Positions 21,711 through 31,311 of a stretch of DNA of 64,000 nucleotides are shown piece by piece. Source of the stretch: an uncultured Opitutaceae bacterium (GTDB lineage: Bacteria > Verrucomicrobiota > Verrucomicrobiia > Opitutales > Opitutaceae). The translations under genes were made by a program, and so were the position numbers. Numbering within the stretch: the stretch's first letter is position 1; every line of letters begins with the position of its first letter. The notes beneath the pieces were generated by a model. It did no database searches, was not told where the DNA came from, and was given only the letters and a program-made list of their open reading frames with translations. The stretch is from positions 1 through 64,000 of the forward strand of contig CAITBM010000013.1 in NCBI GenBank assembly GCA_903890485.1. Direction: 5' to 3'.

Positions 21711-23648
<1,938 letters not shown>

Positions 23649-23660
23649 GCATTTGCGGAT

Positions 23661-23682
23661 ACGGGGCGATTCGTCGCCCCGT
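23661..23682 (+). other. Intercistronic hairpin with TTCG tetraloop
   Basis: A perfect 9-bp stem (ACGGGGCGA with TCGCCCCGT) closes a TTCG loop, 13 bases after the dnaK stop and 30 bases before groES. No T-run follows. It may protect or process the dnaK 3-prime end, or partly terminate transcription. Confidence 0.6.
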
Positions 23683-23711
23683 TCCGACCTTCAACCCAAA
23701 ACCAAATCCAT

Positions 23712-24008
23712 ATGGCTAAAGTCAAAATCAGACCGATCGGAGATCGCGTCCTCGTGAAGCATCTCGAGGACAAAGAGCAGGTCCGCGGGGGTATCATCAT
23801 CCCGGACAGCGCTAAAGAGAAGCCGCAGGAGGCCGAGGTCATTGCCCTCGGCACCGGCAAGCGCGACGAGAGTGGCAAGGTTATCCCCTTCGAGGTGAAG
23901 GTGGGCGACCGCGTCCTCGTCGGCAAGTACGGCGGCACCGAGGTGAAGCTCGAGGAGCAGAAGTACACCCTCGTTCGCGAGGACGACATCCTCGGCGTGA
24001 TCGCCTGA
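23712..24008 (+). CDS. groES: Co-chaperonin GroES (Hsp10)
   Basis: A 98-residue GroES. It has [19 protein letters not shown] at the N-terminus, the mobile loop [19 protein letters not shown], and a family C-terminus [15 protein letters not shown]. Caps GroEL rings during folding. The leader is A/C-rich (ACCCAAAACCAAATCCAT) without a Shine-Dalgarno sequence, as also seen for groEL and cysK. It lies 44 bases before groEL. Confidence 0.98.
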
Positions 24009-24052
24009 GGCCGGTAACAACGAATCAGTAACCACAAAAAAGCTTAAACAAA

Positions 24053-25681
<1,629 letters not shown>

Positions 25682-26600: not shown

Positions 26601-29231
26601 ATGACTCCTGGCGCCCGCTTCCTGGTGACTGGCCTTGTCGTCGTCTCGATTCTCGCCGGGCCATCGGTCCGCGCTTCGAGCCTCCCGGGGTCCCGGGTGA
26701 TCGAGGGGTCCGTGAGGCTGCCGGACCCGGGGGGAGCGACGATAGGCCGGGCTCGGATCGTGAGGACGACCCTTTCTGCCGGCGAACTTTCCACCCGGGT
26801 CTCCTTTTCGGTGTCCCTCAAGATGCGAGACCTGGCCGGGCTCCAGGCCATCGTTGCCTCGGGGGGAAGGCTGTCTTCCGCGGAGCTTGAGACTTCCTAC
26901 CTGCCGCTTCGTTCGGACTATGACCGTGTCTCGGCCTGGCTCAGCTCGCAGGGATTCGCCCCGACGCTCCAGGACCGCATGCACACCTCCGTCTTCGCTG
27001 AGGGTAGCGTGGAGCAGATCGCCCGGGTGTTCGGAGTGCAGTTTGCCCGGGTTGCCGTCGCCGACGGCGAGTACACGTCCGCGGTCACCGATCCCCAGAT
27101 GCCCGGGGACTTGGCGCCCCTGGTCCTGAGCGTCAACGAGCTCCAGCCCGAGTTTCGGCTGAGGCATGTCCAGCCCGCCGCCAGGCCGGTGCCCCTTGAT
27201 CTGGTTGGAAACGGGATCTTCGTCACGCCGGACAACGTCCTCGCGGCCTATAATGTTCCCACGAGCGCGACGGGTGCGGGCCAGGTCGTGGCGATCGTGG
27301 GGGAGGCCGCGGTGACAAACAGCTTCCTGACTTCGTTCTGGACCACGACCGGCGTGGCGCAGTCGGTATCGCGGGTGACGACCGTTAATGTCGACGGGAG
27401 TTCAGGCGGCTCCGGATCGAGCCTTCCCGCGGTCGAGGCGACCCTGGATGTCGAGTGGGTCGGGGCCATGGCGCCGGCCTCGAACATCCGGCTTTACCAG
27501 GCGCAGCAGATCTTCCAGAGCGTGACGGCGATCCAGAACGACCTGCCGAAGTACCCGACCATGTCCGTGATCTCGATCAGCTTTGGGAACACCGAGGGGG
27601 CGTACGGCGCGTCGCAGCTCCAGTCGTTTGCCCAGGTTGCCGCGACCATCGCGGCCCAGGGCGTGACGATCGTGGCCTCAAGCGGGGACAGCGGCTCAAA
27701 CCCCAACAACTCCATCGCGGCCGGCCAATACCTGGCGACAGCCCCCCTGGCCGTCGCCTATCCTGCGAGCGATCCGAGCGTCACCGGGGTCGGCGGGTCC
27801 ACGGTCACCTTCACCGGCAACTGGATGTACACGGGTGAAGGGGCATGGAGCCAGCTTTCGGACACCCAGCCCTCCGCGACCGGGGGCGGCGTCAGCTCAA
27901 CCTTTGCGAAGCCGTCCTGGCAGAATGGTGGATCGGTTCTTGCGGCCCAGACCAAGCGCTGTGTCCCGGATGTCTCCTCCATAGCGGACTCGGCGCTCCA
28001 GAACATCGTCCTGAGCCCCGGCTCCTCGCCGGGCTCCTACACCAACGTTGGGGTCCTCATCGTGGCGGACGATGGCAAGGGTGCGGCGACCGTCATGAAC
28101 GTGGGGGGCACCAGCCTCTCGTGCCCGGTGTGGGCCGGCATCGTGGCGCTCGTCAACCAGGGCCGGGCCAACGCGGGGCAGGGACCGATAGGGCTCTTGA
28201 ACCCCCACATCTACCCCTTGGCCGGCACCAACGCCTTCAATGATGTGAACGGCGGGACGAACGGGGCATACAGCGCGAATGTCGGCTATGACCTGTGTTC
28301 AGGGCTCGGAAGTCCGAACGTCGCAAACCTGATCACGGCGCTGTCGGGGGCCACGGGAGGCCACCACCGCCTGGTGAACCTGTCGGTCTGCGCCCAGGTG
28401 CAGACTGGGGCCAACATCGTGATCGCCGGCTTTGTGATCGGGGGCTCCTCCGGCGCCAAGGATATCCTGGTCCGGGGCGTGGGACCCGCCCTGACGGGGT
28501 TCGGGGTCTCGGGTGCGCTCGCCAGTCCTGTGGTGGGCGTCTACGACTCCCAGAACACGCTGATAGCGACCGACGCGGGGTGGGGGAACGCGTTGACCGC
28601 GGGAACTTCCGCCTCAGGGGCCACTTACCGCAACGCCACTGCTGCGGACATGACCACGACCGGGGCCTTTGCGCTGACGCCCGCCGACTCGGCGATGGCG
28701 CTTTCGCTTCCGGCGGGAAGCTACACGGTCCAGGTCTCGGGGGCGGGGGCGACCACGGGTGTCGCCCTCTCCGAGGTGTATGAGCTGAGCACCACCTCGT
28801 CTCAGACCCTCAAGAACATCTCGGCCCGTTGCTTCGTGGGGACGGGCTCCCAGGTGGCGATCTGCGGGTTCGTGGTGGAGGGCAACGAACCGGCCCAGCT
28901 CCTGGTCCGGGGCGTGGGACCCGCCCTTGCGGCCTTTGGCGTCTCGGGAACCCTCGCGCAGCCCTCGATCGGGATCTTCGACTCGACCAACACGCTAATT
29001 GCGAGCAATACGGGCTGGGGAACACCTCCGATCGCCGGAACCTCGACCGTCTCCGTTTCCTACCGACAGGCGACGGCTGCCGACATGGCCAACGTCGGGG
29101 CCTTTTCGCTCAAGGCGGGCTCCGCCGACTCGGCTATCGTCATCACCCTTCCGCCTGGGAACTACACAGCCATTGTTTCGGGCTCCAATTCCAGCTCCGG
29201 AACGGCTTTGGGCGAAGTCTACGAAATGTAA
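26601..29231 (+). CDS. Secreted S53 (sedolisin/kumamolisin) peptidase with tandem C-terminal module
   Basis: An 876-residue exported serine-carboxyl peptidase. It has a signal peptide (LVTGLVVVSILAGPSVRA), a Pro-kumamolisin activation domain (about residues 40-190) and an S53 catalytic domain (about 200-585). Catalytic residues are visible: E279 and D283 in VEATLDVEW, D363 in SSGDSGSN, and S505 in GGTSLS. The Ca-binding end matches FNDVNGGTNGAY and GYDLCSGLGSPN. The C-terminus holds two related modules of about 140 residues (590-735 and 736-876), each with VIAGFV/VAICGFV and LVRGVGPAL then FGVSG; this repeat is known from secreted proteins of Verrucomicrobia but has no assigned job. It probably digests extracellular protein at acid pH. 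Confidence 0.93.
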   Translation: MTPGARFLVTGLVVVSILAGPSVRASSLPGSRVIEGSVRLPDPGGATIGRARIVRTTLSAGELSTRVSFSVSLKMRDLAGLQAIVASGGRLSSAELETSYLPLRSDYDRVSAWLSSQGFAPTLQDRMHTSVFAEGSVEQIARVFGVQFARVAVADGEYTSAVTDPQMPGDLAPLVLSVNELQPEFRLRHVQPAARPVPLDLVGNGIFVTPDNVLAAYNVPTSATGAGQVVAIVGEAAVTNSFLTSFWTTTGVAQSVSRVTTVNVDGSSGGSGSSLPAVEATLDVEWVGAMAPASNIRLYQAQQIFQSVTAIQNDLPKYPTMSVISISFGNTEGAYGASQLQSFAQVAATIAAQGVTIVASSGDSGSNPNNSIAAGQYLATAPLAVAYPASDPSVTGVGGSTVTFTGNWMYTGEGAWSQLSDTQPSATGGGVSSTFAKPSWQNGGSVLAAQTKRCVPDVSSIADSALQNIVLSPGSSPGSYTNVGVLIVADDGKGAATVMNVGGTSLSCPVWAGIVALVNQGRANAGQGPIGLLNPHIYPLAGTNAFNDVNGGTNGAYSANVGYDLCSGLGSPNVANLITALSGATGGHHRLVNLSVCAQVQTGANIVIAGFVIGGSSGAKDILVRGVGPALTGFGVSGALASPVVGVYDSQNTLIATDAGWGNALTAGTSASGATYRNATAADMTTTGAFALTPADSAMALSLPAGSYTVQVSGAGATTGVALSEVYELSTTSSQTLKNISARCFVGTGSQVAICGFVVEGNEPAQLLVRGVGPALAAFGVSGTLAQPSIGIFDSTNTLIASNTGWGTPPIAGTSTVSVSYRQATAADMANVGAFSLKAGSADSAIVITLPPGNYTAIVSGSNSSSGTALGEVYEM
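28466..28927 (+). repeat. 27-bp direct repeat in the peptidase C-terminal modules
   Basis: The bases 28466-28492 and 28901-28927 are identical over 27 bases and encode LVRGVGPAL at the same place in each of the two C-terminal modules. The surrounding protein is only moderately conserved, so the module duplication is old while this core is retained. Confidence 0.85.
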
Positions 29232-29347: not shown

Positions 29348-29959
29348 ATGAAGCTTTCAAAGAAAGGCGAGTACGCCCTGCGCTCCCTCATCAACCTCGG
29401 GATAGCCGCGGAGATGAACCGCAAGCTGGTGCAGGTGTCGGAACTGGCGGAAAGCGAGCAACTGCCGGTCAAGTTCCTTGAGCAGATCCTCCAGGCGCTG
29501 AAGGAGGCCGGGATCGTCGAGAGCCAGCGGGGAAAGTTCGGAGGCTACCGCCTGGCGAGGCCGGCGAAGAAGATCTTCATCGGCGAGGTGGTTCGGCTGA
29601 TCGACGGGCCCCTGGCGCCCATCGGGTGCGTTTCCCAGTCGGCCTATGAGCCGTGCACGTGCCCGGACGAGGCCCACTGCGGGCTGCGCATGCTCATGCT
29701 CGACGTCCGCAACGCCATCGCCGCGATCCTGGATCGCTACACGCTTTCCGACGTCGTCGAGATCACGCTCCAGAAGATGGAGCGGGACAGCGTCTCGCTC
29801 CCGTTTTCGCCGGAGGTCGAGGGGGAGGCCCTTCCAACCCGGGTTCCCGCGCGGATCGCGCGCCGCCAGCTCGGCAAGCGCCCGCCCGGCGGGCGCGGCG
29901 CCCGGACCTCGCCGGCGGAGGGCATCCTTCACCACATCCTCGGGGAATATTCGATCTAG
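29348..29959 (+). CDS. Rrf2 family transcriptional regulator with cysteine cluster
   Basis: A 203-residue winged-helix regulator. The DNA-binding domain starts [17 protein letters not shown] and includes [18 protein letters not shown] and [12 protein letters not shown]. Four cysteines lie in the wing-to-dimerisation region, [22 protein letters not shown], close in position to the three [2Fe-2S] cysteines of IscR, so a cluster- or redox-sensing role is possible. Members such as CymR control cysteine genes. The location directly before yezD, the sulfate importer and cysK suggests it regulates them. An extended C-terminal tail (about 45 residues rich in Arg and Pro) is not typical. Confidence 0.9.
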
Positions 29960-29977
29960 ATCCAGACGCCCACTCCC

Positions 29978-30172
29978 ATGGACACCACCACCACCTCTCT
30001 TCAAGCCCCCTCCGAGCCCGAGTGGCTCGCCTTGGTCCGGGCCCAGGTCCGGGACCTCCGCTACGGGGTCGTGCAGCTGGTCGTCCACGACGGCCGGGTG
30101 ACCCAGATCGAGCGCACCGAAAAGGTGAGGCTAGCTTCCGACCGAACCGACAAGGCGCCCAAGCAGGGATAG
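29978..30172 (+). CDS. YezD family small protein (DUF2292)
   Basis: A 64-residue protein with the family core [20 protein letters not shown] followed by TEKVRL. YezD proteins are commonly found inside sulfate/sulfur assimilation loci and may bind a metabolite or a partner; function is not established. It sits 18 bases after the Rrf2 gene and 120 bases before the sulfate-binding protein, matching that usual context. Confidence 0.88.
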
Positions 30173-30291
30173 CCCCGGAACCCGCAATTTTCACCACCGG
30201 ACACCCGGAGGCCACCCACCTAGAACCGAATATGCCGATCGCGTACCAGACCCGTCCCCGGGAAGTGCGCCGGCGAATCCGATCCTCCTCC

Positions 30292-31311
30292 ATGACGTCA
30301 ATTCCCAGAATCAGCGCCCTTCGCGCGCTCCTTGCGACCCTGGCCGTCGCTCTCACCCTCTCGGCGGCCGGCGCCAAGACCATCGAGCTCCTCAACGTGT
30401 CGTATGACCCGACCCGTGAGCTCTATGTCGACTACAACCAGGCCTTCGCCGCCTATTGGAAGACAAAGACGGGCGACGACGTGGTCGTGAAGCAATCCCA
30501 CGGCGGCTCGGGCGCCCAAGCGCGGTCCGTCATCGACGGCCTCCAGGGCGACGTGGTGACCCTGGCGCTCGCAGCCGACATCGACAACATCCAGAGCCGG
30601 GGCCACCTCCTGTCCCCCGACTGGCAGTCGAAGCTCCCCGAGAACTCGACCCCGTACACGAGCACCATCGTCCTCCTTGTCCGCAAGGGGAATCCGAAGA
30701 ACATCAAGGACTGGGATGACCTCGTGAGGCCCGATGTGGCTGTCATCACCGCCAATCCCAAGACCTCGGGCGGCGCCCGCTGGGCGTACCTGGCAGCGTG
30801 GGGCTATGCGGAGCGCAAGTACGGAAGCAAGGACAAGGCCAAGGAGTTCATCACGGCCCTCTACAAGAATGTCCCGGTCCTGGACTCCGGGGCCCGGGGC
30901 TCGACCATCACCTTCACGCAGAAGGAAATCGGGGATGTCCTTCTTGCCTGGGAGAACGAGGCTTTCCTCGCCCAGAAGGAATTTGGCCCGGGCAAGTACG
31001 AGACCGTGGTCCCGAGCACGAGCATCCTGGCGGAACCCCCGGTGGCCGTGGTCGAGAAGGTCGCCGAGCGCAAGGGAACGACCGAGGTCGCGCGGGCGTA
31101 CCTTGAGTACCTCTACTCCGACGTGGGCCAGGACATCGCGGGCCGCAACTACTACCGCCCGAGGGCCCCTGCCGCCGCGGCGAAGTACGCCTCGACCTTC
31201 CCGAAGCTGGACCTCTTCACGATCGACCAGGTCTTCGGGGGATGGACCGTCGCGCAGAAGACCCACTTTGCCGACGGTGGCGTGTTCGACAGCATCTATA
31301 ACAAGAAATGA
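30292..31311 (+). CDS. Sulfate/thiosulfate ABC transporter, periplasmic binding protein
   Basis: A 339-residue binding protein of the Sbp/CysP family. Signal peptide [19 protein letters not shown]; then [18 protein letters not shown], typical of sulfate binders, followed by [21 protein letters not shown] and [16 protein letters not shown], in which Ser and Gly backbone positions bind the oxyanion. It supplies CysTWA. The start at 30292 is preferred to the ATG at 30232, which adds 20 charged residues before the signal. The upstream part of the open frame (from 29653) is the reverse shadow of the regulator. Confidence 0.95.

Follow-up and report, generated by a model that had tools for sequence, protein, structure and literature searches.

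T9SS C-terminal domains are terminal beta-sandwiches found on diverse secreted proteins, and SLH domains are helical, repeated modules that mediate surface attachment from either end of a protein. Closer to the modules analysed here are PPC domains. In protease E495, the tandem C-terminal PPC domains bind proteins, and the PPC residues D26, D28 and Y30 are key to this binding (PMC3327674). In Myxococcus, a FibA fragment containing two PPC domains was found in the extracellular matrix and in the spore cuticula (PMC3236237). The clostridial protein ColG carries a tandem of collagen-binding domains, s3a-s3b (5iku), at the C-terminus. PEP-CTERM and MYXO-CTERM sequences are C-terminal marks present on dozens of unrelated exported proteins (PMC11980579).

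The window, a stretch of 64,000 nucleotides from an uncultured Opitutaceae bacterium, contains a peptidase gene whose product terminates in two related modules, hereafter the doublet. The organization of the gene is shown in Table 1.

Table 1. Features of the peptidase gene and its C-terminal doublet. Positions refer to the window, residues to the encoded protein.
Feature	Position	Strand	Basis
Gene for an S53 sedolisin (kumamolisin-like) peptidase that ends in the doublet	26601..29231	+	ORF, 876 aa
Signal-peptide-like N-terminus (MTPGARFLVTGLVVVSILAGPSVRA), end approximate	26601..26675	+	sequence and export-signal heuristic
Pro-kumamolisin activation domain, residues 64-179	26790..27137	+	Pfam PF09286, E 5.1e-11
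S53 catalytic domain, residues ~208-582	27222..28346	+	phmmer match to kumamolisin
PPC-like module copy 1, residues ~590-729	28368..28787	+	alignment A1, profile matches, AlphaFold2 pLDDT 94.6
28-base identical stretch, copy 1	28465..28492	+	0/2000 simulated runs this long
PPC-like module copy 2, residues ~736-876, reaching the C-terminus	28806..29228	+	alignment A1, AlphaFold2 model of the doublet
28-base identical stretch, copy 2	28900..28927	+	longest between-copy run in the ortholog L042 is 14

Judged by its prodomain and by the Glu, Asp, Asp and Ser motifs, the gene product is an S53 sedolisin. A phmmer search matched residues 125-582 to kumamolisin (1t1e_A, E 2.6e-35). In the alignment with 1t1e, residues E279, D283, D363 and S505 coincide with kumamolisin motifs, and the aligned record has an alanine at the serine position matching S505. 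From these motifs, we take the four residues to be the catalytic positions. The first module begins seven residues after the catalytic domain. Bac_A_amyl_C matches the protein weakly (E 0.0052, below cut-off). The peptidase had no match in a defence-system search, and the plasmid collection searched gave no match. A scan of genome contigs with a single module returned one locus only. An ortholog, L042, is located on a contig of an uncultured Opitutaceae bacterium. Both module copies are present in L042 and are 71% identical to those of the window, and the part upstream of the modules resembles the window peptidase as judged by eye.

The preliminary description of this region reported two repeats of about 140 residues, which we confirm. 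The local alignment of the two copies scores 365, whereas none of 500 shuffles scored above 71, and the copies share 54% identity. The core motifs singled out there, LVRGVGPAL (residues 623 and 768) and FGVSG (residues 634 and 779), are present in both copies. The boundaries proposed for the repeats, 28366-29231, were correct to within a few bases, although 28366 itself is out of frame.

Neither window module passed a Pfam or NCBIfam cut-off, and the Pfam PPC model (PF04151) is not listed for either of them. Among 27 copies analysed, PF04151 matched two weakly (best E 0.042) and the other 25 not at all at E<=1. GBD_IRG7_N, a galactose-binding model, matched four of the 27 weakly (best E 0.0017), and Por_Secre_tail matched one (E 0.11). 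On host L033, GBD_IRG7_N matched with an E of 0.00048 but, at 20.7 bits, stayed below its cut-off of 27. A profile search of PDB sequences yielded four matches (best E 0.33), none of which is credible and none of which is a collagen-binding domain.

Structure prediction, proposed earlier as a check, gave a beta-sandwich fold for the single module, modelled with high confidence by AlphaFold2 from 27 sequences (pLDDT 94.6, pTM 0.89). The underlying alignment, A1, comprises 27 of 31 domain rows, partial copies having been dropped. The eight best PDB rows, with Z scores of 8.1-9.7, correspond to the Tk-SP jelly roll, ColG/ColH collagen-binding domains and the ColA PPC domain. For instance, 3afg (C-terminal jelly roll of Tk-SP) has a Z of 9.7 and an rmsd of 2.3 A over 90 aligned residues, 1nqj (collagen-binding domain) a Z of 8.8 and 2.6 A over 92, and 5sv5 (ColA PPC) a Z of 8.6 and 2.4 A over 92. 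Unrelated beta-sandwiches, such as LipL32, TMED1 GOLD and PliG, are found just below the PPC group (Z 8.1), and Foldseek retrieved no structure at E<=0.001 for the single module (best E 3.1e-3). Alignment of the module profile with PPC domains from relatives using hhalign gave a probability of 94.9 and an E of 4.4e-8, over only 54 columns; a control alignment with six Ig domains gave a probability of 2.3. The PPC set (A3) was limited to the top 12 among 24 PPC matches. The PPC-like fold is thus well supported at the level of the model. Most likely, the module represents a divergent version of the PPC domain to which a further, conserved half is joined on the N-terminal side.

The module shares with the PPC domains of E495 and FibA the beta-sandwich and a core consisting of D-x-x-L-x-L-x-D-x-x-G, N-D and G-x-Y-T. 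As in these proteins, two copies are located at the C-terminus of exported proteins. In contrast to PPC domains, the module spans about 140 residues, since it includes the additional N-terminal half (LIRxxGPxL), which was left unaligned by hhalign. The D-x-D-x-Y motif is missing from the module consensus, whereas the PPC consensus of A3 keeps D-x-Y. The module consensus was derived from alignment A2 (44 of 140 copies at <50% identity), and residues R36, G39 and E136 (module numbering) are invariant in 44/44 of these diverse copies. Moreover, the module falls below Pfam thresholds, is carried mainly by non-peptidases, occurs also at the N-terminus, and has tens of hosts per genome. PPC domains proper were detected at E<=0.001 in 14 of 20 genomes, in 8 of them above the cut-off, and in none of the contigs of the genome of the window, indicating that the module forms a separate population. 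The module is therefore new to the catalogues searched, yet a divergent form of a known kind of domain. That no curated threshold is passed agrees with the preliminary description, which has to be amended by the distant relationship to PPC domains. No description of the module was found in the literature covered, which mostly excludes subscription journals.

A second AlphaFold2 model was obtained for the doublet from 23 hand-picked doublets (alignment A4; pLDDT 95.7, pTM 0.91). Going by pLDDT and pTM, it predicts that the two modules form one rigid unit with a fixed mutual orientation. ColG s3a-s3b has a closely similar single-domain fold and the same tandem location at the C-terminus, but the arrangement of the two domains differs in the model (Foldseek E 2.7e-6, TM 0.26). 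None of the 989 PDB chains aligned to the doublet reached a Z >= 8, and this is not evidence for a new arrangement.

The draft genome of the window (G000, 3.1 Mb) contains 28 module matches. In a complete relative (G018, 4.3 Mb), 71 copies in 38 proteins were identified by profile search. Additional genomes feature 93 (G091), 18 (G099) and at least 137 matches (G271; 150 of 199 candidates scored). In a phylum sample of 387 genomes, in which the best 11 candidates of each genome were scored and zero denotes none among these, 21 genomes have module matches: 18 of the 37 genomes listed from its own family, which is probably Opitutaceae given the contig of L042, one genome elsewhere in the order (G363) and two elsewhere in the class (G013 and G257). 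Counts are nearly bimodal, with either none or all of the best 11 candidates matching; the exceptions are G169 and G181, with two matches each, and G363, with three. A separate survey, in which the best 21 candidates were scored, agrees on the 19 family genomes shared by the two. LIRAIGPSL-like modules are presumably present in other phyla as well.

Host proteins were scanned with Pfam at E<=0.01 or, in part, at E<=1e-5, covering 15/15 hosts of G000 and 28/38 hosts of G018 (43 in total). Peptidase domains were found in seven: S53 or its prodomain in three, S8 in two, and M4 and trypsin-like domains in one each. Other hosts carry DUF5122, NHL or PQQ propellers, Ig-type arrays, an ice-binding domain, YHYH, cyclophilin, FG-GAP with laminin-G, CHRD with DUF1800, or no recognised domain. 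Ig-type domains are common to many hosts, and 587 host pairs among 64 hosts are alike outside the modules in blastp comparisons. By sequence, the hosts thus appear mostly unrelated apart from the modules, though not all mutually unrelated.

Export was assessed with a home-made signal-peptide heuristic, which was passed by 48/53 host ORFs compared with 48/145 neighbouring ORFs. The ORFs assessed had a closed 5' end and at least 250 aa, came from G000, G018 and one G160 contig, included two proteins counted twice, and form a set separate from that used below for placement. Three of the five misses look 5'-broken, and the remaining two, L115 and L126, look signal-peptide-bearing by eye. The preliminary description had placed the module on unrelated secreted proteins of this lineage, a claim borne out by the 28 and 71 matches, by the diversity of hosts and by the heuristic. 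It had also named two findings that would speak against it, absence from other secreted proteins and presence in cytoplasmic ones; neither was encountered, and no clearly cytoplasmic protein was seen among the hosts, export being judged by the heuristic.

Placement was analysed in 53 hosts, 15 from G000 and 38 from G018, the two ORF pieces of the frameshifted L031 being treated as one. A module is located at the C-terminus in 49 of them, with 1-7 residues left after it (within 4 residues in 47/49). C-terminal modules form a tandem pair in 43 hosts and occur as a single copy in six, one of which, L041, is a short fragment ORF. In the remaining four hosts, the module is N-terminal (three pairs and one single copy). 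No internal module was found in the 53 hosts. Two copies are consequently not obligatory, given the six C-terminal and the one N-terminal single copies, and the terminal placement of the module is well supported. Paired copies are separated by a linker of 5-13 residues, and some N-terminal doublets directly follow the signal peptide. Three N-terminal carriers with a visible C-terminus (L127, L132 and L133) have no copy there; in L031, the fourth, the contig ends before the protein does.

The 49 C-terminal hosts of G000 and G018 leave no room for a membrane tail after the module, which makes sortase-type processing unlikely in these two genomes. From other genomes, 23 additional host rows were inspected, a biased set as they are top-scoring matches; they comprise 17 C-terminal pairs, three C-terminal single copies, one being a 74-residue fragment, and one N-terminal pair. 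In the remaining two rows, from G169 and G181, the sole doublet is followed by a tail of about 55 residues that is Ser/Gly-rich and contains a hydrophobic segment and arginines. These tails matched no NCBIfam CTERM model.

The history of the pair was inferred from a tree of 127 of the 140 copies, in which branch support was not weighed; eight single copies and five copies fitting no class were left out. Along the tree, the label for first or second position switches 26 times, compared with 35-50 times in 300 shuffles. For 97/127 copies, the nearest copy in another protein occupies the same position, whereas copies of the same protein are sisters in only 4/63 pairs. When homologous hosts were left out, the nearest copy had the same position in 91/127 cases, and in 54/66 within G018 alone; none of 300 within-protein label swaps reached 91 or 54 (maxima 81 and 49). 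Host orthology or duplication is thus insufficient as a source of the signal. Given the same-position nearest copies, the rarity of sisters and the outcome of the swaps, the pair is an old unit that moved mostly whole between hosts. The earlier notion that the module was duplicated within the peptidase has to be abandoned: besides the rarity of sister copies, L042 already has both copies, which also excludes a recent duplication in the window peptidase. N-terminal pairs show no clear kinship to either first or second C-terminal copies. Overall, about half of the family genomes sampled carry the doublet, on unrelated hosts over which it has spread mostly as a pair.

The long stretch of identical bases noticed in the two window copies exists, but measures 28 rather than 27 bases. 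A run of this length was reached in 0/2000 trials of a codon-sampling simulation. Synonymous-codon identity between the copies is otherwise at chance level (38/75, simulated mean 36), so that the stretch, a single run far above expectation, is not the trace of a duplication. None of ten other pairs of the same genome has an excess identical run at P<0.05, and 4/33 pairs of G018 have milder runs of 16-19 bases at P<0.05, about two being expected by chance. Since the run was not attained in simulations and is absent from L042, a recent, short and local conversion tract fits best.

The simplest reading of a rigid, paired domain that stands at the end of many unrelated exported proteins is that of a handle with which they bind a shared ligand outside the cell. 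We infer, with a confidence that is no better than even, that the divergent PPC-like doublet is an extracellular attachment handle, the ligand and the role in retention being the conjectural parts. Hosts would be exported by Sec and would then leave the cell, possibly via the T2SS-like machinery of these genomes. The doublet would bind a common ligand, either a polysaccharide or a protein, at the cell surface or in the extracellular matrix. By analogy with the tandem PPC domains of E495 and FibA, binding may keep enzymes and adhesin-like proteins near the cell. In the case of the window gene, the S53 peptidase might be kept near the cell or near its substrate. In G169 and G181, the doublet may be insufficient for retention, given the hydrophobic-plus-arginine tail. 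Also counting against this reading are the limited kinship with PPC domains (54 columns, and unrelated beta-sandwiches at nearly the same Z), the hosts with a single copy, and PEP-CTERM, which was detected in all 20 genomes tested.

Alternatively, the doublet could be a secretion signal, a folded domain read in the periplasm by an outer-membrane machine (T2SS or T9SS-like) and perhaps then removed. The position of the module, no more than 7 residues from the end in 49/53 hosts, would suit such a role, T9SS C-terminal domains likewise being terminal beta-sandwiches, and GspD-like secretins were detected in 22/22 genomes tested. None of these secretins reaches the curated cut-off, and relatives without the doublet have them just as often, so that they do not discriminate between the two groups; export could use them, but the distribution of the doublet would be left unexplained. 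SprA was found in 0/22 genomes, the control genomes being silent too. Unlike T9SS C-terminal domains, the module is N-terminal in 4/53 hosts, and L127, L132 and L133 lack a C-terminal copy, which speaks against a machine recognising C-termini alone. In addition, MCP-03 reportedly does not need its two C-terminal PPC domains for secretion (cited in PMC3327674). We consider this explanation improbable. Of the two roles suggested in the preliminary description, surface anchoring and action in secretion, the former is favoured on indirect grounds: pairs also occur at the N-terminus (3/53 hosts, with a lone copy in one more), and none of the C-terminal hosts (49/49) has space for a membrane tail, as would suit a handle for binding or retention better than a secretion signal at the C-terminus.

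To a similarly low degree, the doublet may be an ordinary PPC-type pro-domain or substrate-binding domain of peptidases, which would aid folding, inhibit the enzyme or bind insoluble substrates before being cleaved. The PPC-like fold and profile similarity, the presence on S53, S8, M4 and trypsin-like peptidases, and the two C-terminal PPC domains of E495, which bind protein and are trimmed (PMC3327674), all point in this direction. However, 36/43 scanned hosts have no peptidase domain, and the D-x-D-x-Y motif used by E495 for binding is missing from the module consensus. A purely structural role, in which the doublet would shield exported multi-domain proteins at their ends as a cap or spacer without any ligand, is quite unlikely: the module is terminal in 53/53 hosts and its strongly conserved core residues (R36, G39 and E136) may be structural, but such a role would require neither a pair whose two copies are conserved separately nor a confinement to about half of the family genomes sampled, as scored on the best 11 candidates of each.

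The attachment handle resembles other terminal marks in part. Like PEP-CTERM and MYXO-CTERM, the doublet labels many unrelated exported proteins. In contrast to these sequences, it is a folded pair of about 280 residues, is followed by neither a membrane helix nor an arginine tail in 49/49 C-terminal hosts of G000 and G018, and also occurs at the N-terminus. PEP-CTERM coexists with the doublet in the same genomes and is neither a partner nor an alternative to it, as TIGR02595 was detected in 20/20 genomes, ten with and ten without doublets. SLH clusters offer a looser analogy, since they too comprise a few repeated modules placed at one or the other end of exported proteins; SLH domains are helical, however, and no SLH match is listed for any scanned host or module.

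The attachment handle may belong to a broader scheme, which we put forward only tentatively and regard as unlikely. The doublet would be the shared mark of a dedicated, undescribed retention system, parallel to PEP-CTERM, that docks dozens of exported enzymes and adhesins, by either end, onto one surface receptor or polysaccharide, and that is gained or lost whole between genera. The nearly bimodal distribution of the module makes a search for partner genes feasible. If the proposal is right, a module without annotation labels a considerable group of exterior proteins, with 71 copies on 38 proteins of a single 4.3 Mb genome. It would then offer a clear way of testing how enzymes are held outside these cells, and could be used to predict which unknown exported proteins remain at the cell surface.

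Positions of doublet genes, PPC-proper matches and genes flanking the S53 peptidase gene
Feature	Location	Remark
N-terminal doublet gene	L031:7274-8703	own genome; frameshift inside copy 2
DUF1800 protein with N-terminal doublet	L133:1372-4626	also CHRD and Calx-beta
Two neighbouring doublet genes	G010:C24:392037-398457	5.6 kb between
Adjacent doublet gene pair	L134:3-5097	
PPC-proper match in doublet host, 3260 aa frame	G018:C1:650667-650888	above Pfam cut-off
PPC-proper match in doublet host, 1426 aa frame	G018:C1:2812948-2813160	below Pfam cut-off
Hsp70 (PF00012), then GroES-like and GroEL-like ORFs	window 21711-25681	latter two by eye; upstream of peptidase
Rrf2 regulator (PF02082), DUF2292 protein (64 residues), extracellular solute-binding protein	window 29348-31308	consecutive genes; downstream of peptidase

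The position of the doublet, the tandem pair of PPC-like modules, varies among hosts. In the DUF1800 protein, it immediately follows the signal peptide. The broken gene of the Opitutaceae genome itself continues past the frameshift, which could be an assembly error, as Calx-beta-like sequence up to the contig end. In the L134 pair, the first gene carries the doublet at its end and the second at its start. The two G010 genes, the doublets of which score almost equally, appear to have arisen by tandem duplication not long ago.

Genomes G169 and G181 each have a sole doublet (loci L051 and L052), after which the protein runs on into a hydrophobic stretch and arginines. By eye, this tail resembles CTERM sorting tags; it matched none of the NCBIfam models. 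Two doublet hosts of G018, a complete relative, feature an additional match to the Pfam PPC model (PF04151) elsewhere in the same protein.

Beyond the solute-binding protein gene in the window, inspection by eye shows two genes for permease-like proteins and one for an ABC ATPase. By resemblance, we take the solute-binding, permease and ATPase genes to encode a probable sulfate transporter. Since the DUF2292 gene adjoins both this putative transporter and the Rrf2 regulator, its surroundings hint at a role for DUF2292 in sulfur supply.
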